DNA of 64,000 bases. Source: Propionibacteriales bacterium. GTDB taxonomy: Bacteria > Actinomycetota > Actinomycetes > Propionibacteriales > Nocardioidaceae. Under the pieces are notes generated by a model, which did no database searches, was not told where the DNA came from, and was given only the letters and a program-made list of their open reading frames with translations. Of this stretch, positions 8,312 through 32,299 are shown piece after piece. A program made the translations under genes and the position numbers. Location: contig JAPLCB010000004.1 of assembly GCA_026392455.1 (NCBI GenBank), forward strand, positions 248,001 through 312,000. The letters run 5' to 3'. Position 1 is the first letter of the stretch. Each line of letters opens with the position of its first letter.

Positions 8312-9234
8312 CCGACAGCACCTCCTTCAAGAGCGGGTTCGCCTGCTTCGTCGGCCGACCGAACGCCGGCAAGTCGACGTTGACCAATGCGCTGGTGGGT
8401 TCCAAGGTCGTGATCACTTCCTCGAAGCCGCAGACCACCCGGACGGTCGTCCGCGGGATCGTGCACCGCGAGGACGCCCAGCTGGTGCTGGTCGACACCC
8501 CTGGCCTGCACCGCCCGCGGACGTTGCTGGGCGAGCGCCTCAACGACCTGGTGAAGACCACCTGGTCGGAGGTCGACGTGGTCGCTGTCTGCTTCCCGGC
8601 GAACGAGAAGCCCGGGCCCGGTGACCGGTTCATCGTCAACGAGCTGGCCAAGGTGCGGAAGTCCGTCAAGTTCGCGATCGCGACCAAGACCGACCTGGTG
8701 ACCCCGGAGGAGCTGGGCGAGCACCTGCTGCGGATCGCTGAGCTCGGCGCCGAGACCGGCACCGAGTGGGCGCAGATCGTGCCGGTCTCGGCCAAGAACG
8801 GTGACCAGGTGCAGCTGCTCGCGGACCTCTTCGTCGAGCAGCTCCCGGTCGGGCCGCAGCTCTACCCGGACGGCGACCTGTCCGACGCCCCGGAAGAGGC
8901 GATCGTCGCGGAGCTGATCAGGGAGGCGTCGTTGGAAGGCGTCCGTGACGAGCTGCCGCACTCGATCGCGGTGGTGGTCGAGGAGATGGGCCTCAAGGAG
9001 GACCGACCCGCGGACAAGCCGCTGCTCTACATCCACGCGAACCTGTACGTCGAGCGCGACTCCCAGAAGGGCATCATCATCGGCCACAAGGGGTCGCGGC
9101 TCAAGGAGGTCGGGATGGAGGCGCGCCAGCAGATCGAGGCCATCCTGGGCACCCCGGTCTACCTCGACCTGCGGGTCAAGATCGCCAAGGACTGGCAACG
9201 CGACCCGCGCCAGCTGCGCAAGCTGGGCTTCTAG
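8308..9234 (+). CDS. era: GTPase Era
   Basis: The 308-residue protein shows the G1 motif GRPNAGKS at 16-23, G3 DTPGLH near 63-68, G4 TKTD near 129 and a C-terminal KH domain (GIIIGHKGSRLKEVG near 253-267). Era binds the 3' end of 16S rRNA and assists 30S assembly, in keeping with the nearby ybeY. In other actinobacteria era directly follows the Rv2365c-like gene; here tmsAB, repeats and the SIP gene lie between them. Length is normal. Confidence 0.95.
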   Translation: MTDSTSFKSGFACFVGRPNAGKSTLTNALVGSKVVITSSKPQTTRTVVRGIVHREDAQLVLVDTPGLHRPRTLLGERLNDLVKTTWSEVDVVAVCFPANEKPGPGDRFIVNELAKVRKSVKFAIATKTDLVTPEELGEHLLRIAELGAETGTEWAQIVPVSAKNGDQVQLLADLFVEQLPVGPQLYPDGDLSDAPEEAIVAELIREASLEGVRDELPHSIAVVVEEMGLKEDRPADKPLLYIHANLYVERDSQKGIIIGHKGSRLKEVGMEARQQIEAILGTPVYLDLRVKIAKDWQRDPRQLRKLGF

Positions 9235-9307
9235 CAGGGGGCTGGTGCCGGTCGTCAGCTCTCGGCAGTCACCCAAGGACTTCGGTACCGTGCACGCGGA
9301 GCGCTAG

Positions 9308-9442
9308 GTCGGCGCGTGCCCCGGTGGCGAGCAGCAACCGCTCCGGTTCGCGATGGCGGTGCTGCCCGACCCGGCGTTGCTGCTCCACGACGAGCCGACC
9401 ACCGGGATGGACGTCGAGGACCGCCGGGCCGCACGGGTCTGA
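9308..9442 (+). pseudogene. Remnant of an ABC-transporter ATPase (signature motif to Walker B)
   Basis: Between era and dgt one frame reads GGEQQPLRFAMAVLPDPALL then LHDEPTTGMDVEDRRAARV and a stop (9323-9442). This is the ABC signature (usually SGGEQQRLR) followed by Walker B (LLLLDEPT) and the D-loop region, with changes such as R to P in the signature and L to H before the DEPT. A stop at 9305-9307 bounds it upstream and there is no Walker A. It is therefore a decayed internal fragment, roughly 40 codons, of a DrrA-like or similar ATPase gene. Confidence 0.8.
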
Positions 9443-9464
9443 CGTCGTGGATAAGGTCGGGCGC

Positions 9465-10721
9465 ATGACGACCTGGGACGACCTCTACGACGACGATGCC
9501 CGCGCGCGCCTCGTCGACGAGCCGGTCAAGCGGGTCCCGGCCCCGGAGCGGACCCCGTTCGAGCGCGACCGGGCGCGGGTGGTGCACTCCGCGTCGTTGC
9601 GCCGCCTGGCCGCGAAGACCCAGGTCCTCGGCCCGCAGGCAGACGACTTCGTCCGGAACCGGTTGACCCACAGCCTGGAAGTTGCCCAGGTGGCGCGCGA
9701 CCTGGCGCACCCGCTGGGCTGCCACCCCGACCTCGCCGAGACCGCGGCGCTGGCGCACGACCTGGGGCACCCGCCGTTCGGGCACAACGGCGAGGAGGCC
9801 CTGGACCGGTTGGCTCAGTCGTGCGGCGGTTTCGAGGGGAACGCCCAGACGTTGCGGATCCTCAGCCGGCTGGAGGCCAAGTCCGTCGACGCCGACGGAC
9901 GCTCGATCGGGCTCAACCTCACCCGCGCCACCTTGGACGCGTGCACCAAGTACCCGTGGGTCCGTGGCGGTGGCCCGCGCCCGACCCGGAAGTTCGGGGT
10001 CTATGCCGACGACCTTCCGGTCTTCACCTGGTTGCGCCGTCCGGTCGACGGCCCGCGCCAGTGCGTCGAGGCCCAGGTGATGGACTTCGCCGACGACGTC
10101 GCCTACTCGGTGCACGACCTCGAGGACGGCATCGTCGCGGGGCACATCGACCTGCACCTGCTGGACTCTGCGACCGAGCTCAGCGGTGTCTGGGAGACCG
10201 TCCGGGACTGGTACCTGCCCGAGGTCGACGACAACGAATTGACGGCGGCCCTGGACCGGGTCCGCAGCGTCGGGACCTGGCCGACCCGCCCGTACGACGG
10301 CACCCGGGCCGCGCTGGCCTCGTGGAAGAACCTGACCAGCGACCTGATCGGGGTCTTCTGCGGCAGCGTGCACACGGCCACCCGGGCGGAGTTCGGTTCC
10401 GAACCGCTGGTCCGGCACCAGGCGGACCTGGTCGTCCCGGTGACCACCGAGCACGAGATCGCCGTGCTCAAGGGGATCGCGGCGCACTACGTGATGCGCT
10501 CGGAGCAGCGGATCTCCTTGATGGAACGCCAGCGCCAGCTCGTGGACGAGCTGTTCGCCGCGCTGCTGAGCACCGACGGGCGAGCGCTCGACGCCAGCCT
10601 CAAGGCGGACTACCTCGAGGCTGGCGACGATGCTGCCCGGACCCGGGTGGTGATCGACCAGGTCGCCTCGTTGACCGACGCGAGCGCCATCAGCTGGCAC
10701 CGTCGACTGACCAGCCGCTGA
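9465..10721 (+). CDS. dgt: Deoxyguanosinetriphosphate triphosphohydrolase-like protein (dNTPase)
   Basis: The 418-residue HD-domain protein contains RNRLTHSLEVAQVARDLA near 64-81 and ALAHDLGHPPFGHNGEEAL near 94-112, which hold the His/His-Asp metal ligands of dGTPases. MDFADDVAYSVHDLEDG near 205 supplies the later Asp of the site. It hydrolyses dNTPs to nucleoside and triphosphate, setting nucleotide pools. ATG 9465 was chosen because the in-frame extension upstream runs over the ABC-ATPase remnant. The neighbour dnaG keeps the actinobacterial dgt-dnaG order, with two small reverse-strand genes between. Confidence 0.92.
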   Translation: MTTWDDLYDDDARARLVDEPVKRVPAPERTPFERDRARVVHSASLRRLAAKTQVLGPQADDFVRNRLTHSLEVAQVARDLAHPLGCHPDLAETAALAHDLGHPPFGHNGEEALDRLAQSCGGFEGNAQTLRILSRLEAKSVDADGRSIGLNLTRATLDACTKYPWVRGGGPRPTRKFGVYADDLPVFTWLRRPVDGPRQCVEAQVMDFADDVAYSVHDLEDGIVAGHIDLHLLDSATELSGVWETVRDWYLPEVDDNELTAALDRVRSVGTWPTRPYDGTRAALASWKNLTSDLIGVFCGSVHTATRAEFGSEPLVRHQADLVVPVTTEHEIAVLKGIAAHYVMRSEQRISLMERQRQLVDELFAALLSTDGRALDASLKADYLEAGDDAARTRVVIDQVASLTDASAISWHRRLTSR

Positions 10722-10743
10722 CCTCGGCTCCGCAGGGGTGCGT

Positions 10744-11016
10744 TCAGCCGGTGGGTAGGTCGATCGTCGCCCCGTGCGGACGGAGATCTGCGTCGACCTC
10801 CGTTTCGGACCGGACTGCCTGGACCGCCTTGTCGGCCAGTGCCGACCCCTGGTCGTGGGCGAACTCGACGGCTTCGTGGACCTTCTCGCGCACGTCCGGG
10901 TTGGTCTTCACCCTCAGGAAGTACGTCCGGATCTGTTCGTAACGTTCCTCGCCTGCCTTGGCTCCCAGCACGTAGCCAGCAGCGAAGGACGCCACGGCGA
11001 CTGCTCGCTTGATCAT
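10744..11016 (-). CDS. Small YtxH-like membrane-associated protein
   Basis: The product is about 90 residues. It starts with a short hydrophobic stretch containing FAAGYVLGAKAGEERYEQI, the glycine-rich motif seen in YtxH-like proteins, and continues as a charged, probably helical tail. ATG 11016 is favoured over GTG 11022 because GAGG lies about eight bases upstream of it. It follows, in the same direction and by only ten bases, the gene at 11027-11326, so the two are probably an operon. Exact function is not known; a stress-related envelope role is typical but inferred. Confidence 0.65.
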   Translation of the reverse strand: MIKRAVAVASFAAGYVLGAKAGEERYEQIRTYFLRVKTNPDVREKVHEAVEFAHDQGSALADKAVQAVRSETEVDADLRPHGATIDLPTG

Positions 11017-11026
11017 CGCCACCGCC

Positions 11027-11326
11027 TCACTTCAGGACGCGGCGGACGAGGACGAGGGCGACGACGCCCAGGACTAGGCCGACGAGCAGTCCGCGACGCG
11101 GGCGCCCCTCGGAGTCCGTCGCGTTCTCCAGGAGCGTCGCTGCACTGCTCTCCGCCCGGGTGCGGAGGGCATCGGTGTCCAGCTTCTCCACGAGTCCGCT
11201 GACGTCGATCTTGTCCGTGATCGCGCCGACGTCGATCTTGTCGGTCAAGCCGCCGACGGTCTCGGCCAACCGGTCTCGCTGCTGGCCGATCTGCTTGCTG
11301 AGGTCTGGTGCCTGATTTCGGGACAT
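11027..11326 (-). CDS. Small protein with C-terminal membrane anchor, DUF3618-like
   Basis: The 99-residue protein begins MSRNQAPDLSKQIGQQRDRL and has amphipathic repeats (TDKIDVGAITDKIDVSGLVE). It ends in one transmembrane helix (GLLVGLVLGVVALVLVRRVLK). The start at 11326 has AAGGGAG about eight bases upstream. The layout (helical soluble part, then a C-terminal anchor) resembles small actinobacterial DUF3618-type proteins. It lies upstream of the YtxH-like gene and is divergent from dnaG. Function unknown. Confidence 0.65.
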   Translation of the reverse strand: MSRNQAPDLSKQIGQQRDRLAETVGGLTDKIDVGAITDKIDVSGLVEKLDTDALRTRAESSAATLLENATDSEGRPRRGLLVGLVLGVVALVLVRRVLK

Positions 11327-11435
11327 CAGGGGACTCCCTTCCTGGGTTGTTACCTCTGGTGTACCCAACGGAGCCGATCCGACACCTGGGCCGAGCACGC
11401 TGACGGCTGTCCGGCCGCCCACGTAGGATCGGGGC

Positions 11436-13301
11436 GTGCCAGGCCGGATCAAGGACGAAGACATCGCGACGGTGCGTGAGACCGCGCGCATCGACGAGGT
11501 CATCGGCGCCTACGTCACCCTGCGCAACGCGGGTGGCGGCAACATGAAGGGGCTCTGCCCGTTCCACGACGAGAAGTCGCCGTCGTTCAACGTGACACCG
11601 TCGCGCGGTATGTACCACTGCTTCGGCTGCAACGCCGGTGGCGACGTCATCAAGTTCGTGATGGAGATGGACGGTCTCTCCTTCACCGAGACCGTCGAGC
11701 GGCTCGCCGAGAAGGTCGGCGTCCCGCTCCGGTACGAGGACGGCCCCGGTCCGGCGCGCAACAGCGGGGGGCCGCAGCGTCCCCGTCTGGTCGAGGCGCA
11801 CAAGCTCGCGGCCGCCTACTACGCCGACCAGCTGGCCACCCCCGAGGCGATGCAGGCGCGGCAGTTCCTGGACACCCGCGGGTTCGACCAGGACGCGGCC
11901 GCCCACTTCGGGGTCGGCTTCTCGCCACGCGGTGGGGAGGACCTGACCCGGCACTTGAAGCAGCTCGGCTTCTCCGAGGCCGAGCTGGTCGCGGCCGGTG
12001 TTTCCGGACAAGGCGGGCGTGGCCTCTACGACCGGTTCCGGGGGCGGCTGATGTGGCCGATCCGGGACTCCAGCGGGGACGTGATCGGTTTCGGTGCCCG
12101 CCGGATCTTCGACGACGACCGGATCGAGGCCAAGTACCTCAACACCTCCGAGACCCCGATCTACAAGAAGAGCCAGGTGCTCTACGGCATCGACCTGGCC
12201 CGGCGCGAGATCGCCACCGCCAGCCAGGCCGTCATCGTCGAGGGCTACACCGACGTGATGGCCGCGCACCTGGCCGGGGTGAAGACGGCGGTCGCGACCT
12301 GCGGCACTGCCTTCGGTGACGACCACGCCCGGGTGATCCGTCGGCTGCTCCAGGACCACGACGAGTTCCGCGGGGAGGTGATCTTCACGTTCGACGGCGA
12401 CGCCGCCGGGCAGAAGGCCGCGATGCGGGCGTTCGAGGGCGACCAGAACTTCGCCGGCCAGACCTATGTCGCGGTGGCTGCGGACGGACTCGACCCCTGC
12501 GACCTGCGTCTGCAGCAGGGGGACGCTGCGGTTCGCGACCTGGTCGCCTCACGGGTGCCGCTGTACCGGTTCGTCCTGGGCAACGTGGTGGCCCGCTACG
12601 ACCTCGACCGGGCCGACGGCCGGATCGACGCCCTTCGCGAGGCAGCCAAGCTGGTGACCGCGATCCGGGACCGGTCCAAGGTGGACGCCTTCGCCCGGGA
12701 GCTGGCGGGAATGCTCGGCATCGACCCGAACGACGTGCAGCGCGAGGTCCGTCGTGCGGCGAGCCGGTCGTCGGGAGCGGCCGTTGCGGCGCCTCCGCAG
12801 CAGCGCCCCGACGTGGGCCTGCCGGACGCGCGGGACCCGAAGTACGTGCTGGAGCGGGAGACCCTCAAGCTCGTCGTCCAGCGACCCGGGATCATCGGCA
12901 ACCTGCTCGCCGAGGTCACCGAGGACGCGTTCACGCACCCGGCGTACCGGGCCGTGTGGGCGGTCGTGACGCTGGCAGGCGGGGTGGCCGCGGCTGACGA
13001 GCAGTGGACCGCCCGGTTGCAGGCGAACACCGCCGACGAGCGGGTGCACTCCTTGCTCTCCGCGCTCAGCGTCGAGCAGGTGATGACCAGCAAGGAGCCG
13101 GACGCGGCGTACGCGGCTCAGCACGTCCACCGGCTGCGCGAGGTCGCCGCGATGCGCCGGATCGAGGACCTGAAGTCCAAGCTGCAACGGACCAACCCGA
13201 TCGACGACCAGCTGGAGTACAACCGGATGTTCGGCGAGCTGGTCGCTCTGGAGCAGCACCGCCGCCAGCTGCGCGAACTGGCCCTGGACTCGACGTCGTG
13301 A
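11436..13301 (+). CDS. dnaG: DNA primase
   Basis: The 621-residue primase has an N-terminal CHC2 zinc finger (C41, H44, C62, C65). Its catalytic Toprim domain shows VIVEGYTDVM with Glu269 and FDGDAAG with Asp320 and Asp322. A C-terminal helicase-binding region follows. It makes RNA primers for replication. GTG 11436 gives the standard actinobacterial N-terminus (PGRIKDEDI). The stop overlaps the start of the next gene (GTGA). Length is normal for the family. Confidence 0.96.
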   Translation: MPGRIKDEDIATVRETARIDEVIGAYVTLRNAGGGNMKGLCPFHDEKSPSFNVTPSRGMYHCFGCNAGGDVIKFVMEMDGLSFTETVERLAEKVGVPLRYEDGPGPARNSGGPQRPRLVEAHKLAAAYYADQLATPEAMQARQFLDTRGFDQDAAAHFGVGFSPRGGEDLTRHLKQLGFSEAELVAAGVSGQGGRGLYDRFRGRLMWPIRDSSGDVIGFGARRIFDDDRIEAKYLNTSETPIYKKSQVLYGIDLARREIATASQAVIVEGYTDVMAAHLAGVKTAVATCGTAFGDDHARVIRRLLQDHDEFRGEVIFTFDGDAAGQKAAMRAFEGDQNFAGQTYVAVAADGLDPCDLRLQQGDAAVRDLVASRVPLYRFVLGNVVARYDLDRADGRIDALREAAKLVTAIRDRSKVDAFARELAGMLGIDPNDVQREVRRAASRSSGAAVAAPPQQRPDVGLPDARDPKYVLERETLKLVVQRPGIIGNLLAEVTEDAFTHPAYRAVWAVVTLAGGVAAADEQWTARLQANTADERVHSLLSALSVEQVMTSKEPDAAYAAQHVHRLREVAAMRRIEDLKSKLQRTNPIDDQLEYNRMFGELVALEQHRRQLRELALDSTS

Positions 13302-23470: not shown

Positions 23471-24268
23471 GTGATCCCACACGCACGTGAAGAGATCAAG
23501 GCACTCGCTGCCAGGAGCAACATCGTGTCTCTGTCCGCGGTTGACGGGTGGAATGTTCAGGAGTGGGAACTCACGACCGCAGATGTCCAACGAGTCGTCA
23601 AGGCGTATCAAGCGATCTTGTCTGTCGACCTGGATGCAGACCTTGATCAGCTGCTGATCGATCTCGGGGTGGACCGCCTAGGCCCGAAGCCGGACTCAGA
23701 GCAGCATGCCAAAGTAGCGCGAGCTGATGCCATCGAGTTGGTCGCCGCCGCAACAGTCGTTGCTGTTGAGCAGGTCGGCCTCGACGACATCCACATGCCG
23801 AATGTTCCGAAAATGGCGACCAAGAAGAGTGATAGCGGCATCGACGTACTCGGAGTTGAACTCGATTCAAATGAGGTGGGTGACTTGGTCGCGGGGGAGC
23901 GCCTCGTGTTGGTCAGCGTCAAACACACCATCGGCAAGTACGCGAGCGGGATGCGCTCAAAACTTGAGGCGTCGTTGAAGGACGACCTATCGGGTCCTTA
24001 CATCTACCGCCAACTCACCAACCTACAAGGACGGATGATTCAGGCAGGGGTGCCGGAGGCGACGGCCAACCGAGTCATCTACTTCATGAGAGAGACTCTT
24101 TCCAATCCGAATGTGCGCATCATCGGCGTTGCAGCCGCGGAGCCGGATCCAGACTGCAATCTTCAAGACCAGACGGGCCTCCTGGAACATACCGATAGCC
24201 CGGACGCACACTTCAGAATGCTCCTCGTGCCTGGGCTCAAGGCGCTGCACACGAAGCTCGTTCCCTAG
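23471..24268 (+). CDS. HamA-like (DUF1837-type) nuclease candidate of a Hachiman-like defence pair
   Basis: The 265-residue protein has an alpha-helical N-terminal part. From about residue 85 it has a PD-(D/E)XK-like layout: a helix with Glu100, then GIDVLGVEL with Asp125, then LVLVSVKHT with Lys151, followed by helices. HamA of Hachiman (DUF1837) has a similar size and pairs with a Ski2-like helicase, exactly as here. The usual acidic residue two before the Lys is Ser149, which is unusual. GTG 23471 was chosen; frames running further upstream overlap the opposite gene. The stop overlaps the helicase start (TAGTG). GC is clearly lower than in flanking core genes. Confidence 0.62.
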   Translation: MIPHAREEIKALAARSNIVSLSAVDGWNVQEWELTTADVQRVVKAYQAILSVDLDADLDQLLIDLGVDRLGPKPDSEQHAKVARADAIELVAAATVVAVEQVGLDDIHMPNVPKMATKKSDSGIDVLGVELDSNEVGDLVAGERLVLVSVKHTIGKYASGMRSKLEASLKDDLSGPYIYRQLTNLQGRMIQAGVPEATANRVIYFMRETLSNPNVRIIGVAAAEPDPDCNLQDQTGLLEHTDSPDAHFRMLLVPGLKALHTKLVP

Positions 24269-27246
24269 TGGCTGCGCCGGACTTCGCGCAGTCGCGAAGG
24301 CAGTTGCGGAGGGCACGCGTACAGAACGCGCTCACAATGCCGAGGCAGGGAGTCAACTCACGCCTGCACCGTGATCGGCTCCTCGAGATCTTGGCGTTTG
24401 AACGTCTCGACGACGACCTGTCATTCGGGCGACTTGCCGAGGATCAAGTCGAGACCATTGTCGCTATTGCATTGGCTGATATTCCGGATGATCCTATCGA
24501 TCGCGCGTTCGTACTGCTCGAGTGCCTTACTCTGCTGATCCGCGACGGCCAGTTCGCTCGGATGAAGATCTTGGCCTCGCGACTTCAGGCCGTCTCGCGC
24601 GAAGCGTCGGCCGGACGTCGATTTCTACGACTAAGTATCAGCTCAATCGCGTTGTCGCTAAGCGGACATCCCAACCGAGCCGCTAGCAACTTGGACCGTG
24701 GGCTCCGTCCCGAAGCCGATCCAAGCGCTGAGGTTGATGTTCGCCATGAACTGGCAGTGGCTGCGGCAATCAAATCTGTCCTCGTCGAAGACGAACTCGA
24801 GTTCGCAATGCGCGCGCGGGATCTATTCACGCGCCTCGGCGATGGCTTAAGTGTCGCGCTGCTGGATACGACCATTGCATGGCAGCGAGCGCGTGAGGCC
24901 GCCGATCCGCTTTCGGTGCTCCAACTGGCAGATCCGACCTTCGAGCGTCCGGAGTTGGTCGAATACGTTAGACGGCGTGGAATCGAGGTGCTTTTCCCGT
25001 CGCAGATCGCAACCATCAACGAGGGATTGACGACCGACGAGGAACTGACTGTCTCGCTGCCGACTTCGAGCGGGAAGACGCTTCTGGCAGAGTTCAAGAT
25101 CGCGGCGACGCTCGCACGCACCCCGGAAGCAACGGTGATCTACGTCGCTCCATACCGGCTGTTGGCTCGGCAAGTCACGCGGTCGTTCGAGCACCATCTG
25201 TCGCGCCTGGGGCATCGAATCCAGGACCTAGGAAGCGGATACGACCTAGAGGTTAGATCCGATCTTGGGGGCGTATTGATCTGCACGCCCGAACGTCTGG
25301 ACGCACTTCTACGCCAAGCAAGCTCAGAAGGCGACGTCCGCGAGGCATTCTCTCGGTGCCGGCTGGTGGTCTTTGACGAGATGCATCTAATTGGTAGATC
25401 CGGTCGAGGGCCGCGATTCGAGCTCCTCCTCACACGGCTGCGAATGGCGTACCCGGACGCTGGTTTCCTGGCCCTGTCGGCAGCGAGCCAAGGTGTCGAC
25501 GAAGTGGCTTCGTGGCTCACCAGTGGGCGCCTCGTGAAAGGTGCGCGCCGACCGACTGGAACCATCGAGGTCTCGTGGCGAACAAACGGTGAGTTGGTGC
25601 AACGCGTTGATCGAATGAAGCCGACCCTCGTCGGCGAACTCGGTCGGTCGTCGAGACCGATTGATGACGCCGTGCTCTTGATATCGCGGTTGTCGTCCGC
25701 ATATCGCCCTGTCCTTGCAGTTTGCACGCAGCGCGCGTACGCAGAATCCATTGCGACTCGCCTGGTGGAGTCGGATCCGCTCGGGAATCGACTCTGGGTC
25801 GAAGAGTTGCAACCGGAGCAAGTGGAGTTGCTTGAAGCGGCCGTTGAGGTCGTCGCGTCGATGATGGGCATGAAACACCCTCTGACGACTTGTCTCCGCA
25901 ACGGTGTCGGATTTCACCACGCGGGTGTCCCATCCATCGTTCTTGGGCTCATTGAGGAGTTGGCAGCCGAGCGAGTCTTGCGGGCCGTCTCGGCGACGAC
26001 AACGGTCGCGGAGGGTGCGGATCTTCCATTCCGGGCCGTGGTGATTCCTCACCTGAACTTTCAAGGAAATTCGCGCAAGCTCGAACGCGACCTTTACTTG
26101 AACATCATCGGGCGAGCTGGTCGGGTGAACGTTGCCATGGAGGGTGTCGTGTTCATCCTCGATTCGAATGCCGAAACGCTTCGACATCATGTTTCGACCA
26201 CGCTGTGGACGACAGCCGAGGTCGGTCGAGTGCGAGGCCAACTCACCACGATTACCGATTTGCCGCGGACCCCGGACGAGACCAATTGGTACGGTGAGTT
26301 TGAGTCTCAGGTCATGGGCTGGCTTGGCGATGGCGACAGCTACCACGCGGATCAGGCCGAGTTGCTTGCCGCATCGACCTTCACCTTCCAATCTGGGAAC
26401 TCGATCGAGAAGCGACATGTGCGAGACCTGACGCAAACAGTCCTCGTATCGCTTGAACGCAGCGGCTTCGCGCAAGCGGCCAGCCCATTTCGACTCACAG
26501 AGCGTGGCGTACGCGCGCGACTAACCGGGCTCACCACCACTAGCGTCGCGCGACTTGAGGCCGCGATTGAGGAGGGCGTCGCGGGGTGGCTTCCGTCCCT
26601 GCTCGGAGTCGTCGAACTCTCGAGGATGCAACTAGAGCAGATCGCGCGAATCATCTTCGAGACTAGCGAAACCATGTCGCATTCTCTTTGGCTGCGGAGA
26701 GGACGCAAGAACGATGCGGGTCGTGCCGCCTACCTCGACTCGTTCGCCCGTATGAGAGTCGACGAGCACGAGCAGAGTGACACCTTCTGGGCAGAGGTCA
26801 ACGCGGTCGTGCTCTGGATGGACGGCAACCCATTCGAAGTGATCGCAGACAGCATGCCGACCTTTGGCCGCACCGGCCTTTTCGGCGGTAGTGATCAAGC
26901 AGGCCGGGTTTCGGATGTCGCTGAGTACGTGTCGAAGATTGGGTATCCCGGTAGTTGGAGTTGGTCAGCTGCGCGAACTCTCGTGAAGGAGATCCTTGCC
27001 CTTGACTTGCCCGCCTGGATCGGTGGAGCAATCGAGTTTGGCGCATCCACCGAGACGGCAGTTTTTCTGATGAGGTCAGGCTTCTTGTCGCGTCCCGGCG
27101 CCTTACATCTAGCCACGCTGCTTGGGCCTTCGTGGGAAACCGCATCTGAACTGCTGCGTGACGACGACAGTTTCGACTCGGAACTCGTTGCAGTCGATCA
27201 GGAGCGACTTGAACAGCTTCGGTTCCTCCTCAGGAATCCAAACTAG
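24268..27246 (+). CDS. Ski2-like superfamily 2 helicase, HamB-like
   Basis: The 992-residue helicase has a helical N-terminal domain of about 230 residues. Two RecA domains follow: Walker A LPTSSGKT at 264-271, DEMH box at 370-373, LSAAS near 405, FHHAGVP near 550, ATTTVAEGADLP near 575 and motif VI IIGRAGR near 613-619. A C-terminal helical region follows. Size and motif spacing fit HamB of the Hachiman system. GTG 24268 shares one base with the upstream stop, so the pair is translationally coupled. Two TTA leucine codons (near 24846 and 27101) and low GC support recent acquisition. Confidence 0.72.
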   Translation: MAAPDFAQSRRQLRRARVQNALTMPRQGVNSRLHRDRLLEILAFERLDDDLSFGRLAEDQVETIVAIALADIPDDPIDRAFVLLECLTLLIRDGQFARMKILASRLQAVSREASAGRRFLRLSISSIALSLSGHPNRAASNLDRGLRPEADPSAEVDVRHELAVAAAIKSVLVEDELEFAMRARDLFTRLGDGLSVALLDTTIAWQRAREAADPLSVLQLADPTFERPELVEYVRRRGIEVLFPSQIATINEGLTTDEELTVSLPTSSGKTLLAEFKIAATLARTPEATVIYVAPYRLLARQVTRSFEHHLSRLGHRIQDLGSGYDLEVRSDLGGVLICTPERLDALLRQASSEGDVREAFSRCRLVVFDEMHLIGRSGRGPRFELLLTRLRMAYPDAGFLALSAASQGVDEVASWLTSGRLVKGARRPTGTIEVSWRTNGELVQRVDRMKPTLVGELGRSSRPIDDAVLLISRLSSAYRPVLAVCTQRAYAESIATRLVESDPLGNRLWVEELQPEQVELLEAAVEVVASMMGMKHPLTTCLRNGVGFHHAGVPSIVLGLIEELAAERVLRAVSATTTVAEGADLPFRAVVIPHLNFQGNSRKLERDLYLNIIGRAGRVNVAMEGVVFILDSNAETLRHHVSTTLWTTAEVGRVRGQLTTITDLPRTPDETNWYGEFESQVMGWLGDGDSYHADQAELLAASTFTFQSGNSIEKRHVRDLTQTVLVSLERSGFAQAASPFRLTERGVRARLTGLTTTSVARLEAAIEEGVAGWLPSLLGVVELSRMQLEQIARIIFETSETMSHSLWLRRGRKNDAGRAAYLDSFARMRVDEHEQSDTFWAEVNAVVLWMDGNPFEVIADSMPTFGRTGLFGGSDQAGRVSDVAEYVSKIGYPGSWSWSAARTLVKEILALDLPAWIGGAIEFGASTETAVFLMRSGFLSRPGALHLATLLGPSWETASELLRDDDSFDSELVAVDQERLEQLRFLLRNPN

Positions 27247-27259
27247 TCACTCGATGCGG

Positions 27260-27925
27260 CTAATCATCGTCTTCACGAACACTGCTTTCTGGTGCGCTTC
27301 CGTTGGGCTCGTCGGTATCGGCCCAAAGCGCAACGACTGCCATCCAAGGGACATCGCCCACTCTCGGGAGACCAATCCAGCCTGCGGTCCTGTCTGATCC
27401 AAGGTCGCCTGCCCATAGCAAGAACAGATCTCGGCAGAACGACACATCGCGACGGTCGCGCGGTCGGGGATCGCCGTCGTACGTCAGGGTCCAATCAGGG
27501 GTCGAGAACGGGTAGTAAGCGCTTGAGTTCCGTCTAGCAGCCGACTCCCGTGTCGCAGAAGTGGACCAGTCGAAGTCGCTGAGAAAGTCGGGTGTAAGGC
27601 CGCGGTCGATTGGAGACTTGACCACCCGAAGGCGGAAGCCGCCGAGACCGAGCAAGGCGATGCCAGTGTCCATCTCGGGCCGCACGCCAGGAGCGATACT
27701 GGCTTCCTCAACCGTCGCGACGATTCTGTTGTTTACGTTCCGGCTAGTTTGATAGCCAAGGACGTTGGTGTCGTCGAAGTGCTCCTCCGGCGACCAGCGC
27801 GCACGGTTCTGCTTCCAGACCTCGCCGACCAGCTTCCTCAAGAAGTCAATCACTCCAGCATCGGCGTACGCGGTCCGAGCGCTCTCAAGATGCGCGAGGG
27901 CTGCTTCGTCCCACAGATCGTTCAT
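27260..27925 (-). CDS. Unrecognised island protein downstream of the helicase
   Basis: This 221-residue soluble protein is not recognised. The N-terminal third is helical (LAHLESARTAYADAGVIDFLRKLVGEVWKQ cut here for length), and the rest looks beta-rich with FCRDLFLLWAGDLGSDRTAG. ATG 27925 has AGG six bases upstream; a longer in-frame version to 28102 would add a Cys-rich, unlikely N-terminus. It converges with the helicase gene across 13 bases and diverges from the HNH endonuclease gene. It could be an accessory part of either defence system, but nothing in the sequence decides this. Confidence 0.5.
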   Translation of the reverse strand: MNDLWDEAALAHLESARTAYADAGVIDFLRKLVGEVWKQNRARWSPEEHFDDTNVLGYQTSRNVNNRIVATVEEASIAPGVRPEMDTGIALLGLGGFRLRVVKSPIDRGLTPDFLSDFDWSTSATRESAARRNSSAYYPFSTPDWTLTYDGDPRPRDRRDVSFCRDLFLLWAGDLGSDRTAGWIGLPRVGDVPWMAVVALWADTDEPNGSAPESSVREDDD

Positions 27926-28131
27926 ACGCCTAGTTTCGTCTCCGTCGCCGACATTTCGGCGCAGTTGTGAGACGTTGGCGACCGGCATCCGTACGGCTCT
28001 TGGATTCGGAAACGGGAAACATGGGCATTGGTGCATCCCCTTAGAAGCTCGCCAGCTGCATTCTTTCGGTGTACCTATCGACTTGCAGTGATCGTCCAAC
28101 ACTTGGCCGATGCTCCTGTAACTTCAGGGTC

Positions 28132-29337
28132 GTGCCGCTCATATTTCGCAAGCAGCCGTCGGGCGCTGCGTCGGCCGCTGCTGGCTCAGCCTCGCGCGGC
28201 CGAGGTGAGTACGAACTCGTGGGCGAGGAGGGTAACTACAGCGCTCGTTCCTTACGGGAGCACGGGTTCATCTGGGAGACGCCCTTCGGTACGAAAGAAT
28301 CCGAGATCGCGCTGAGTAACCAAGGCGGCAAGTGGCGTCTTAGGATTACGGCGGCTTCGGGCGTGCCGCACATCCACCGCCAAGGCGCGACTCTCGCGCT
28401 GCTGCCACGCCCTGTTCGTGACGAGAGCCGCGTCTCTCACGGCAAGCCAATCGTCCTGGAAGACCGCTATCTTCTGGATATCCAGGTCGGTCTGCTTAAG
28501 GTGGAGGACGGCATGGCCACGGTAACGCCGGCCATCTACACCGGACGGTCGGGCACCGCTGCCGATCTCGACCATCTCGTTAATCTCCAGGCGCCCGATC
28601 GGTTCGCGCGGTTGGAGCGTCTCTGGGCGTCGATGGATGCCTTACCAGACCGCGTCGCCGAGACCGTTGACGTCCACCGGCAGTACGTCGTCGGCCCGGA
28701 CCTCATCGGCCTTCCGGCAGAGCGCTCCGTGCGCGCTGTTGTCGATGCGCTCGAGGCTGAGGACGTCCCTTGGTACATCCCAGGTTCAGACCCGCTCGAT
28801 GCGCTTGAGCTCCTTGCGGGAATCACCACCGTCATTCCTGACCTGCCGTTGCCCAACGAAGCGCCGCCCGACAGCCCGGAGATTCGGCGTCGCTTGGAGG
28901 TTGCGCTGCGAATCACTAAATCGCGTGGCAAAGGGCACGCCAACTTCAAGAAGGATGTTCAGCGTGCCTACAACTTCACCTGTGCGTTCTGCGGCTTCAA
29001 AGCGTTGAATGTTCCTGGCTTCGGCCGTTTTGGCAACGACGCGGCGCACATCCTGCCCTGGAGCCAGTACGACCTCGACCACGTGACCAACGGCCTACAA
29101 CTTTGCCGCCCGCACCACTGGGCGTTCGACAACAAGATCCTGCTGTTGCGAGCCGACAGCGGCGTCTACCGAGTCGAGCTGAACACGAACCTCACGGACG
29201 GGATCACCGACCAGGCGACTATGGGTTTGCTGCTTGAAGCCGTCGGTGTAATCCCAGACGAACGACTCCCCAAGCCCTCTGAGCGTCCGAGCCCCGAGTT
29301 CATCGAGAAGCTCTATGAAGGGCTTGAGGGGTACTAG
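28132..29337 (+). CDS. HNH endonuclease, probable type II restriction enzyme
   Basis: The 401-residue protein has a C-terminal HNH domain. Cys284-x2-Cys287 start a zinc knuckle, then GNDAAHILPW with His306, NGLQLCRPHHWAFDNK with Cys and HH at 328-329. The first 270 residues are a separate, unrecognised domain that may recognise the DNA site. Its stop is four bases from the stop of a convergent C5 methyltransferase gene, the arrangement of a type II restriction-modification system. GTG 28132 is the best-placed start. Confidence 0.75.
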   Translation: MPLIFRKQPSGAASAAAGSASRGRGEYELVGEEGNYSARSLREHGFIWETPFGTKESEIALSNQGGKWRLRITAASGVPHIHRQGATLALLPRPVRDESRVSHGKPIVLEDRYLLDIQVGLLKVEDGMATVTPAIYTGRSGTAADLDHLVNLQAPDRFARLERLWASMDALPDRVAETVDVHRQYVVGPDLIGLPAERSVRAVVDALEAEDVPWYIPGSDPLDALELLAGITTVIPDLPLPNEAPPDSPEIRRRLEVALRITKSRGKGHANFKKDVQRAYNFTCAFCGFKALNVPGFGRFGNDAAHILPWSQYDLDHVTNGLQLCRPHHWAFDNKILLLRADSGVYRVELNTNLTDGITDQATMGLLLEAVGVIPDERLPKPSERPSPEFIEKLYEGLEGY

Positions 29338-29341
29338 GCGG

Positions 29342-30313
29342 TCAGGCGACGCCCTCGGCTCCTGACTCGGACGCGTAGTCGGCCATAACCTCGGCGATGC
29401 GTCCGCCAATCCACTCGGCGACGTTCACCGTGACGGCGTTGCCGCAGGCGTGGTAGCGAGCTGAGTCCAACTTGTCGATGTTGCCGTTGAAACTGTCCAC
29501 ATCGGTCCAGCCGTCAGGGAATCCCTGGAGCCTCTCGGTCTCCAGCGGGGTCAGTCGGCGGACGCGGCCTTCCGGGTACGAGACGTAGTTGCGCGACCAG
29601 TCCGTTCCGGTGTGGCGGGCGCTTTCTGCGTAGAGGCAGTGGGCGAGCTTTTTGACGAAGCCTCGCTCAGGATCTCCAACGCTGATCTGAAAGGGGGAAA
29701 CAGATTTCGGCCCATCCGGTCCGCTCTTCTCAGAATCCCTGTCGCCGCGTTCGGACTCAAAAAGTACTGCTCCGGCACGCGCCGGACCTCCAAGAGTTCC
29801 GACAATGAAGACTCGGGTACGTGACTGGGGGACGCCGAAGTAGCGACTGTCAAGGACTCGCCACGCCACGCCATACCCGAGGTCGGCCAGCGTCCGAATG
29901 ACGACTGCGAAATCTCTTCCTTCGTGGGAAGAGAGGAGACCCGCAACGTTTTCGAGGACGACAACAGGGGGGCGAGCTTCCGCAAGTAGTCGAGCAAACT
30001 CAAAGAAGAGCCCCGACTGCTTACCGCGGAGTCCACTCCTCGGACCCATTCGAGCAAGAGAGACGTCTTGGCAGGGGAATCCGCCTGCCCAGATCGTTGC
30101 GTCCGGGATGTCACTAGCGGTCACCTCTCGAATGTCTGTTGCCTTGGGCACGTCGGGCCAGTGGTGCTTGAGCACGTCCTGGCAGAAGTCTTTGATTTCG
30201 CACTGGAAGACCGTGCGCATGCCGGCGCGCTCGAACCCAAGGTCGAACCCACCGATTCCGGCGAAGAAGGAGGCCACCGTGAGGTCTGTGCTCACGTCAC
30301 TCTTCTTGCTCAA
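29342..30313 (-). CDS. DNA (cytosine-5-)-methyltransferase
   Basis: The 323-residue enzyme has the C5-MTase motifs in order: FFAGIGGFDLGFERAG (I), GGFPCQDVS with catalytic Cys81 (IV), VVLENVAGLL (VI), QSRTRVFIVG (VIII), RLTPLETERLQGFPDGW (IX) and GNAVTVNVAEWIG (X). The target-recognition region between VIII and IX is short. It protects the host against the neighbouring HNH endonuclease. TTG 30313 is preferred because AGGGAG lies about five bases upstream; an in-frame GTG at 30361 would add 16 residues. Confidence 0.9.
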   Translation of the reverse strand: MSKKSDVSTDLTVASFFAGIGGFDLGFERAGMRTVFQCEIKDFCQDVLKHHWPDVPKATDIREVTASDIPDATIWAGGFPCQDVSLARMGPRSGLRGKQSGLFFEFARLLAEARPPVVVLENVAGLLSSHEGRDFAVVIRTLADLGYGVAWRVLDSRYFGVPQSRTRVFIVGTLGGPARAGAVLFESERGDRDSEKSGPDGPKSVSPFQISVGDPERGFVKKLAHCLYAESARHTGTDWSRNYVSYPEGRVRRLTPLETERLQGFPDGWTDVDSFNGNIDKLDSARYHACGNAVTVNVAEWIGGRIAEVMADYASESGAEGVA

Positions 30314-30361
30314 CTCATCTCCCTGTGCATGTAGCGGGACGGTATTCGACCCCACCGACAC

Positions 30362-30643
30362 TCACACTGCCGGGCCCAAGGTCACGATAACCCGAAATGA
30401 CACTGGTGTAACTCATTGGGCCCAGCGTTCCTCTAGTCGTCGTCATCGTGCAGCGCCCGAGTGAGGAGTCCTTCGGACCGTCCAACTAAGTGGGCACTTT
30501 GTGCGTCGCGAGGGTTGGCTCAAGGCACGGCACATTGAACCCGGACGCTTGCCGCACGTCCTGGACGACGTCGCGCGACAGATGATGCCGCGTGGTAGCC
30601 GCGAATGTCGCGGAGTGTCGGTAGGTGCTGCTCGAATGAAGTC
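30362..30643. other. Intergenic region between methyltransferase and next pair
   Basis: About 280 bases between divergent genes hold no convincing ORF, RNA gene or strong hairpin. If the methyltransferase starts at the longer GTG (30361), this region begins just outside it. It must carry the promoters of both directions, but no clear -35/-10 pair can be named. Confidence 0.5.
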
Positions 30644-31261
30644 ATGTCGCTCACATCGCCCGCCATTGCAGTTCGTCTGCGGCGCTTGTGGGCTGGGGAG
30701 ATCGTGACATCAGACGAACTCATGGCCAGCGTCCTCAGTGGTGACTGGCACGGAGTTGAGTTAGAGCGGAAGGGGCCGAATCTGACAGTCGTCGGACCCG
30801 GATCGGGCCGAGCCGCGATCAAGGGGCCGCTCGGGGACTTGCTGGCTCGCCGAGCTCGTGAGGTGACAGGGGGCGCAATTACGTCGGTCCAATGGCGCGC
30901 AAGCAGCCGATTCACTCCGGCTCGCCGGGATAGGACCACCGACGTGGACGTATTTAACGTTGAGGATCCGCTACTCGAAACCTATCCCGAGATACTTGCC
31001 GACGTTCGGTCATCCATCCCGACCAGTGCATCGCCCGAAGCTTGTGCCGCAGTCGGAGCTCTGAGGTTGGTCGGCGCTTCACGACATCGCTTGTGGTTTG
31101 CCGCCGAAACGCTCGCAGCGCGCGACGCCCTTGGGACGGTGCCCGGCGCAAGGGCGGCTTTGGTAGTCACAGTGCAGAACTACCAGGCGGCGAAGCGTCC
31201 GCTACACCACGTCCTGATTGACCCGTCCTATCGCGCAAAGCAACAACGGCTCCTGCCGTGA
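30644..31261 (+). CDS. Unrecognised protein, partner of the ImmA/IrrE-like protease
   Basis: This 205-residue protein is not recognised. It begins with a helical segment (MSLTSPAIAVRLRRLWAGEI) and has an Arg-rich middle. It ends with ALVVTVQNYQAAKRPLHHV. No signal peptide or membrane segment is present. ATG 30644 gives the best start. The next gene begins 22 bases after its stop on the same strand, so the two form a likely operon. Antitoxin, regulator or substrate of the protease are all possible and none is shown. Confidence 0.55.
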   Translation: MSLTSPAIAVRLRRLWAGEIVTSDELMASVLSGDWHGVELERKGPNLTVVGPGSGRAAIKGPLGDLLARRAREVTGGAITSVQWRASSRFTPARRDRTTDVDVFNVEDPLLETYPEILADVRSSIPTSASPEACAAVGALRLVGASRHRLWFAAETLAARDALGTVPGARAALVVTVQNYQAAKRPLHHVLIDPSYRAKQQRLLP

Positions 31262-31283
31262 TGGCCGTCGACGAGGAGCAGAG

Positions 31284-32165
31284 ATGACCCAACTGACGCT
31301 CCCGGGTCTACAGCCCGAACCGTTCGCCCCAGCGCTCGTCCCGGCGCAGCAAGCGCGGCGCACATCCCTCGACCGCATCGTCGACAACCTGCTTCTGGAG
31401 ATGCGTCCTGGCGACATCGTCAGCCAACTGATAGCGCTGCGCCCGCACGCCGCCTTCAATGCGCTGCTGGCGATTGCTCAACTGCCTTACGCCGCCATGC
31501 TGCGTACTCAGTCTCGATGGGAATCTGAGTGGGGGCGCCGAATCCGACCGGGGCAGCACCCCATTGTTCTGCTGGCTCCCTTCGGTCCAGTGGAGCTCTA
31601 CTTCGATGTCTCTCAGACTGAACCTGGAGAGCATTCCCGATCGCTGCCACTCGAACATCAGAGCCTGTTCACGATGACGGACGCCCCGGGCGCCGAGAGG
31701 CTGCGAGTCCGGATCATCGAGGACGTCAAACAGTACGGCGTACGCGTAGTCAGCTCCGAGGTTGGTACCCCGCTGGCAGGCAAGATCCAGCAGGTGAGTG
31801 TTCATGGTTCCCAGACCTCCAAAGGCAGGGACGTCCCCGTTCGGTGGATCATTACCTTGGCTGCGTCCCATTCATCGACCGAACAGTTGTCCACCTTGGT
31901 GCATGAACTGGGCCACCTCTTCTGCGGACACGTTGGGTCTGATGACAAGGACAAGTGGGCCCAGCGATCCGACATCGATCCTGCGACCATGGAATTTGAG
32001 GCCGAGACTGTCACGCAGATCGTCTTCGGACGACTTGTGCCGGATACAGAACTCCCCGCATATAGCGAGCGAGTTCTTGCAGACGCTTCCGCAGCCTCCC
32101 GAGCTGACTGGGTCCACGTGGTCCAGGCGGCCGACCGGGTGATGAAGCCGTTCTCGAAGAACTAA
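31284..32165 (+). CDS. ImmA/IrrE-type zinc metalloprotease domain protein
   Basis: The 293-residue protein has the zinc motif HELGH at 207-211 with a downstream EAETV near 236-240 that can supply the third ligand. This is the pattern of ImmA/IrrE (M78-like) peptidases. Residues 75-110 (SEWGRRIRPGQHPIVLLAPF) resemble the N-terminal region of ArdC-like proteins. Such enzymes cleave repressors or are tied to mobile elements and anti-restriction. ATG 31284 has GAGGAGCAGAG just upstream. It is the last gene before the tRNA-derived sequences at the island edge. Confidence 0.78.
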   Translation: MTQLTLPGLQPEPFAPALVPAQQARRTSLDRIVDNLLLEMRPGDIVSQLIALRPHAAFNALLAIAQLPYAAMLRTQSRWESEWGRRIRPGQHPIVLLAPFGPVELYFDVSQTEPGEHSRSLPLEHQSLFTMTDAPGAERLRVRIIEDVKQYGVRVVSSEVGTPLAGKIQQVSVHGSQTSKGRDVPVRWIITLAASHSSTEQLSTLVHELGHLFCGHVGSDDKDKWAQRSDIDPATMEFEAETVTQIVFGRLVPDTELPAYSERVLADASAASRADWVHVVQAADRVMKPFSKN

Positions 32166-32225
32166 TACAGATCTCGGGGGAGCGGCTTCGCTCGGTCTGC
32201 CAGCCTGGGGCTCATCAAAAGTGGG

Positions 32226-32299
32226 TAGGGCAGGTCGGACTTGAACCGACGATCCAACGATTATGAGTCGTTTGCTTTAACCAACTAAGCTACTGCCCT
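32226..32299 (-). tRNA. tRNA with CAT anticodon (Met elongator or Ile2 type)
   Basis: On the minus strand a complete 74-base cloverleaf can be drawn: acceptor AGGGCAG / CTGCCCT, D-arm GCTTAGTTGGTTAAAGC, anticodon stem AACGA / TCGTT with loop CTCATAA, T-arm GTCGGTTCAAGTCCGAC and discriminator A. CCA is not encoded. The CAT anticodon fits elongator Met or a lysidine-modified Ile; the sequence alone does not decide. It is more AT-rich than the other two tRNAs here and resembles the fragment at 32376-32417. Confidence 0.88.

Follow-up and report, generated by a model that had tools for sequence, protein, structure and literature searches.

The Hachiman defence system comprises the nuclease HamA, which carries a D-GExK motif, and the helicase HamB. 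In HamA of the E. coli ECOR31 system the motif glutamate and lysine are E138 and K140 (PMC12278908), and the stretch around them reads LKTEAKSRA. AbpAB, in which a Cap4-like nuclease is joined to a HamA domain without catalytic activity and accompanied by the AbpB helicase, and HamMAB, a protease-HamA fusion with the MBL-fold pro-nuclease HamM and HamB, go under the names of Hachiman variants or fusion Hachiman and both lack D-GExK; inactive HamA has repeatedly been combined with new effectors (PMC12278908, PMC12799240). Here, we analyzed a window of 64,000 nt from a Propionibacteriales bacterium (GCA_026392455.1, JAPLCB010000004.1, positions 248,001-312,000, forward strand), in which two adjacent genes encode a HamA-like protein, designated HamA', and a HamB-like Ski2-family helicase, designated HamB'. 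With moderate confidence, we regard HamA'B' as a Hachiman-like nuclease-helicase defence system with a rebuilt nuclease active site. Since a search for the D-GExK motif recovered only its D and K, with Ser for the Glu in 114/115 sequences, it is classed as a Hachiman-like variant and not as an ordinary Hachiman.

A preliminary description of the locus had reported a 265-residue protein with GID and SVK residues translationally coupled to a 992-residue Ski2-like helicase, and had taken the two for a diverged Hachiman pair. The open reading frames (ORFs), coordinates and motifs were all recovered, as was the coupling: the TAG stop codon of hamA' (24266-24268) and the GTG start codon of hamB' share one G, giving a one-base overlap. 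The GTG start of HamA' at 23471 corresponds to the same first residue in 21 of 30 aligned rows (query counted), and since the homologues support this start, a longer open frame upstream lies outside the gene; the GTG start of HamB' is backed by the stretch xxPDFxxSRRQLRRAR, conserved at the N-terminus of homologues. The assignment as a Hachiman-type pair was likewise borne out, by the fold of both proteins, their gene order and coupling, shared contigs and co-divergence. HamA' itself matched no Pfam, PADLOC or NCBIfam model at E 1; among 60 relatives, the PADLOC HamA1 model matched 17 (best 2.5e-6) and the PDC-M23 models, not named in the literature searched, matched none. The structural match to HamA on which the preliminary description had made its assignment depend was found, the HamA (DUF1837) fold of ECOR31 (PDB 8VX9/8VXY) being matched over 219 residues.

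For HamB', the highest-ranked Foldseek match was HamB, not a family without a link to HamA, with 881 residues aligned over residues 1-992, including the N-terminal helical domain; Hel308 matches begin at residue 212-219, and six Brr2 rows likewise extend into residues 1-61, with an aligned length of just 595-604 residues. By VIA Z alone Hel308 (32.6) stands above HamB (27.6; 49th of the 50 rows shown), and HamB was chosen over Hel308 because aligned length decides. Assigning the helicase by its best sequence model alone was rejected: PDC-M23B, the top PADLOC model (178.6 bits), and HamB1 (177.1 bits) are level, and the helicase core therefore does not decide the family. The helicase motifs PTSSGKT, DEMH and GRAGR are intact; the His of DEMH is replaced by Gln in 57/97 relatives. 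Gene order, coupling, protein sizes, both folds, intact helicase motifs and the retained equivalents of E89, D125 and K151 are thus shared with ECOR31 Hachiman, from which the pair differs in the Ser for the motif Glu, the His following the Lys, a HamA' sequence that the HamA models do not match, an extremely conserved loop before the motif Asp, and an RmrT-like neighbour.

The active site of HamA' was compared across an alignment of 116 sequences (119 records minus P0002 and two query copies); as the homologue searches with both proteins scored limited candidate lists, family counts are to be read as at least the numbers given. HamA' carries G123-I-D125 and S149-V-K151, and column counts were 114/115 for S149, 113/115 for V150, 114/115 for K151 and 114/115 for H152, with the sole row lacking S149, K151 and H152 (P0037) garbled over the whole stretch and looking frame-shifted. 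D86 is Asp in 114/114 non-gap rows and E143 is acidic in 114/115 rows. In a single profile comparison of the family with four ordinary actinobacterial HamA sequences (probability 68, E 4.7e-5), E89, D125, K151 and S149 of HamA' were paired with E89, D125, K149 and E147 of the ordinary HamA P0240. In terms of the PD-(D/E)XK core, the fold, D125 and K151 are present and the second acid position is Ser. Judged from the alignment, a family of more than 100 proteins has fixed Ser in place of Glu and has also gained a His following the Lys and an acid at position 121; D121 (acidic in 115/116) and H152 are the lineage-specific polar residues near the motif. The changed nuclease motif noted in the preliminary description is real, with Ser for Glu at position 149, but it is a fixed, family-wide state and not a peculiarity of the strain, which argues against simple decay. 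No HamA variant with Ser for this Glu was found described in the available text of PMC12278908, PMC12799240, PMC10440598, PMC11883136, PMC1189080 and PMC4081073.

The suggestion that Glu143 or Asp125 replaces the lost ligand fared less well. Asp125 is the ordinary motif Asp, and Glu143 is weak as a special replacement since it aligns to an invariant Asp of ordinary HamA (D141 of P0240); the acid at 143 is accordingly old, not new. Cfr10I has an SVK triplet and Glu204. HamA' shares a serine before the motif Lys with restriction enzymes of the Cfr10I/NgoMIV type, in which an SxK half-motif is combined with a Glu moved to a helix, and a migrated carboxylate is described for NgoMIV (PMC1189080). 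A Cfr10I-like migrated Glu, expected about 14 residues beyond the motif Lys, was rejected for HamA', where E166, 15 residues after K151, is Glu or Asp in just 40/111 rows. The most conserved stretch of HamA', more so than in ordinary HamA, is MPNVPKM...KSDSGID (columns 109-125), which may be a contact for HamB', since the HamB-contacting loop of ECOR31 HamA (102-117) occupies the corresponding place before the motif Asp.

The two genes also travel together. The contigs of most homologues are known by their protein records, and same-contig status was judged by identical contig size, an indirect measure. Of the 79 HamA' matches on contigs of at least 4 kb, 40 share an exact contig size with one of 113 helicase matches among those listed (113 used from the best 120 of 181); with sizes shifted by 1-30 bases, matches numbered 0.43 on average and 3 at most. 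The distance matrices of HamA' and helicase correlate with r 0.953 over 38 pairs (at most 0.255 in 2000 shuffles) and with r 0.882 over the 23 more distant pairs alone (shuffles at most 0.527), two pairs sharing contig size 9593 having been left out as ambiguous. At locus L014 (genome G480), hamA' and the helicase gene are adjacent and overlapping as in the window, and at L015 (G548), in a record that is partly N, the sequence ahead of the helicase matches only the final part of HamA'. The distribution of HamA'B' is sporadic: HamA' occurs in 1/197 relatives (the window's own genome, with 0/196 others), in 3/394 genomes of the class sample (the own genome and two others), in 1/396 of the phylum sample (again the own genome) and in 2/148 relatives of G480; these whole-genome samples overlap, and the order was not searched for HamA'. 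Two genome-contig searches and viral contigs searched with HamA' gave no further loci, plasmid and phage collections searched with either protein gave none, and the only hits in viral contigs with the helicase as query were three distant helicases (23-28% identity).

A second Hachiman, of the ordinary kind, is present in the window's genome at locus L016 (G000:C4; HamA 8851-9702 with AEVK, HamB 9699-12680, 993 aa), a pair at about 248850-252680 of that contig scoring 209.8 bits with HamA1 and 934.8 bits with HamB1. The same cell thus contains an altered and an ordinary Hachiman. Three loci (L008, L009 and L010) in relatives belonging to the same order hold open frames of 1157-1246 aa in which a HamA-like part containing EAK comes before a helicase part, apparently HamA-HamB fusions.

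Table 1. Features of the HamA'B' locus, numbered by position in the 64,000-nt window.
Feature	Position	Strand	Basis
HamA' (HamA-like protein), 265 aa	23471..24268	+	ORF, homologues, fold match to HamA
E89 codon (helix Glu, also present in ordinary HamA as E89 of P0240)	23735..23737	+	Glu in 113/113 non-gap rows
D121 codon	23831..23833	+	D/E in 115/116; non-acidic there in 4/4 ordinary HamA compared
D125 codon (motif Asp)	23843..23845	+	Asp in 116/116; aligned to D125 of P0240
S149-V-K151-H152, replacing GExK half-motif	23915..23926	+	S149 aligned to motif Glu E147 of P0240
HamB' (HamB-like Ski2-family helicase), 992 aa	24268..27246	+	ORF, helicase domain matches, fold match
N-terminal all-helical domain of HamB', residues about 1-210	24268..24897	+	Matched in HamB, outside Hel308 matches
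Helicase motif I, PTSSGKT, residues 265-271	25060..25080	+	
Helicase motif II, DEMH, residues 370-373	25375..25386	+	
RmrT-like third gene	27260..27925	-	PADLOC RmrT; start at 27925 fits RmrT alignment, open frame to 28102
tRNA-Met gene	32224-32299		Low-GC stretch ends nearby

We infer a role in defence, DNA cutting, the trigger and the metal-binding residues of HamA'B' by analogy with described systems. As in ECOR31 HamAB, HamB' would bind HamA' via its extra N-terminal helical domain, patrol DNA and restrain the nuclease; once phage infection had produced a free end or damage in DNA, the HamB' ATPase would start, and HamA', once released, would cut DNA, so that the infection would end together with the cell. 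E89 and D125 would hold the metal ion of HamA', K151 would serve as the motif lysine, and the role of the lost Glu would pass to S149, H152 and perhaps D121. Because S, K, H, D and E are invariant, selection probably acts on the chemistry of this site, and the PD-(D/E)XK group is known to include enzymes that have Asn or Gln for the acid or carry it at another place (PMC1189080). Three points weigh against a rebuilt site. No new invariant acid is proven as a stand-in for the lost Glu, E166 included; the double change E138A,K140A of ECOR31 HamA ends defence, so the half-motif acid that HamA' lacks was needed there; and a HamA domain can be retained in a functioning system although its site is inactive, as AbpA illustrates (PMC12278908). 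Compared with AbpAB, HamA' (265 aa, with a start supported by homologues) has no second nuclease domain and keeps an invariant though different motif. HamMAB likewise has a HamA without D-GExK, a helicase and a further gene (PMC12799240); at the HamA' locus there is neither a protease fusion nor an adjacent MBL nuclease, the extra neighbour is RmrT-like, and the altered motif is conserved, not absent.

That neighbour, which went unremarked in the preliminary description, lies tail-to-tail with the helicase gene across a 13 bp gap and matches PADLOC RmrT (3.6e-28, 96.5 bits). In RosmerTA, RmrT acts as the toxin and RmrA, an HTH/ImmA-protease protein, as its antitoxin (PMC10440598). The third gene differs from RosmerTA in adjoining HamA'B' with no RmrA beside it, and its product is about 25-32% identical to the RosmerTA RmrT proteins of relatives. 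No RmrA-like ORF was found within 20-36 kb of window sequence, with control genomes positive: the RmrA model scored 490.6-569.7 bits in 4/4 of them, and at best 22.5 in the window's genome and 26.8 in that of L014. An RmrT-like gene (2.1e-26) occupies the same place at L014, with the same orientation and gap, its product being 50-51% identical to the window's; other RmrT-like proteins found are 25-38% identical, the next nearest 35-38%. Of nine other loci with RmrT-like matches, eight have an RmrA-like ORF alongside, the ninth (L052) having given neither match. An RmrT-like gene without antitoxin thus goes with HamA'B' in 2/2 whole loci, or 2/3 when L015 is counted, which is suggestive, and the gene may belong to the system.

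These observations speak for the strongest rival, a possible though clearly less probable reading, in which HamA' is a fixed non-nuclease adaptor and the RmrT-like protein is the effector, checked by HamA'B' instead of RmrA and freed when HamB' senses damaged DNA. The loss of the motif Glu throughout the family would fit such an adaptor, and AbpA and HamMAB provide precedents for an inactive HamA with another effector (PMC12278908, PMC12799240). Its fuller form, slightly more doubtful still, is a three-gene descendant of Hachiman in which HamA' gave up cutting and HamA'B' would act as both antitoxin and trigger of an RmrT-like toxin released on damaged DNA. However, just two loci, both from one branch of the family, carry the arrangement, and L015, from the other branch, has the helicase yet no RmrT-like ORF in the sequence read; the ORF adjoining its helicase is presumably TcmP-like. 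S149-V-K-H is invariant in both branches, which is not obviously required of a mere scaffold, and both genomes hold weak, partial RmrA-like matches: the 26.8-bit match in the L014 genome spans model positions 14-295 but is remote from the locus, and L014 itself has, about 2 kb upstream of HamA', an HTH/TPR ORF with a weak RmrA match (9.6e-5). Defence islands may, moreover, bring an orphan toxin gene next to a defence system by coincidence.

It is unlikely that HamA'B' is an ordinary Hachiman with a tolerated substitution, in which E89 or water replaces the Glu, cutting proceeds as in other HamA proteins and nothing particular follows from the change. The retention of E89, D125 and K151 and the known PD-(D/E)XK enzymes whose acid is replaced or relocated (PMC1189080) are in keeping with it, but S149 and the new H152 are conserved like catalytic positions, so that the site looks selected, and HamA' falls outside the PADLOC HamA model with a helicase at 177 bits for the best HamB1, versus 209.8 and 934.8 bits for the genome's ordinary pair. 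A housekeeping DNA-repair nuclease-helicase pair is very improbable, for although the helicase core is equally close to Hel308 and HamB, the pair is sporadic (absent from all 196 other relatives, present in two others of 394 class genomes), shares a low-GC island with genes for a methylase and an HNH protein and with the RmrT-like gene, and includes a protein with a HamA fold match.

The GC content of the 23-32 kb stretch is about 60% (0.595-0.622), with flanks at 0.655-0.715, and the stretch with HamA'B' looks like an acquired defence island; no long direct repeat bounding it was recognised in a repeat list that was looked over, not searched exhaustively. Beyond the RmrT-like gene, an HNH protein (28069-29337, +; Pfam HNH_2, 7.1e-9, with a partial match below cut-off to a phosphorothioated-DNA restriction model) adjoins a C5 cytosine methylase (29342-30361, -; TIGR00675, 1.1e-66), perhaps as a restriction-modification pair. 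At the end of the island, beside tRNA-Met, the gene for a 218-aa protein without a recognised family (30605-31261, +) overlaps that for an M78/IrrE-type peptidase (31218-32165, +; PF06114, 31.5 bits).

The cutting mechanism of HamA is known from one motif, and the HamA' family lets one ask whether the altered motif means a different metal site or a changed role; with both Hachiman versions in the genome of the window, the two are comparable in one host. Because the altered nuclease escapes current models, annotations of these loci probably list a helicase on its own. If the toxin-type neighbour is functional, it would illustrate how one effector can replace another under a DNA-damage sensor, and if the three-gene reading is true, control over a toxin from a toxin-antitoxin family would lie with a sensor of genome integrity in place of the protease antitoxin.

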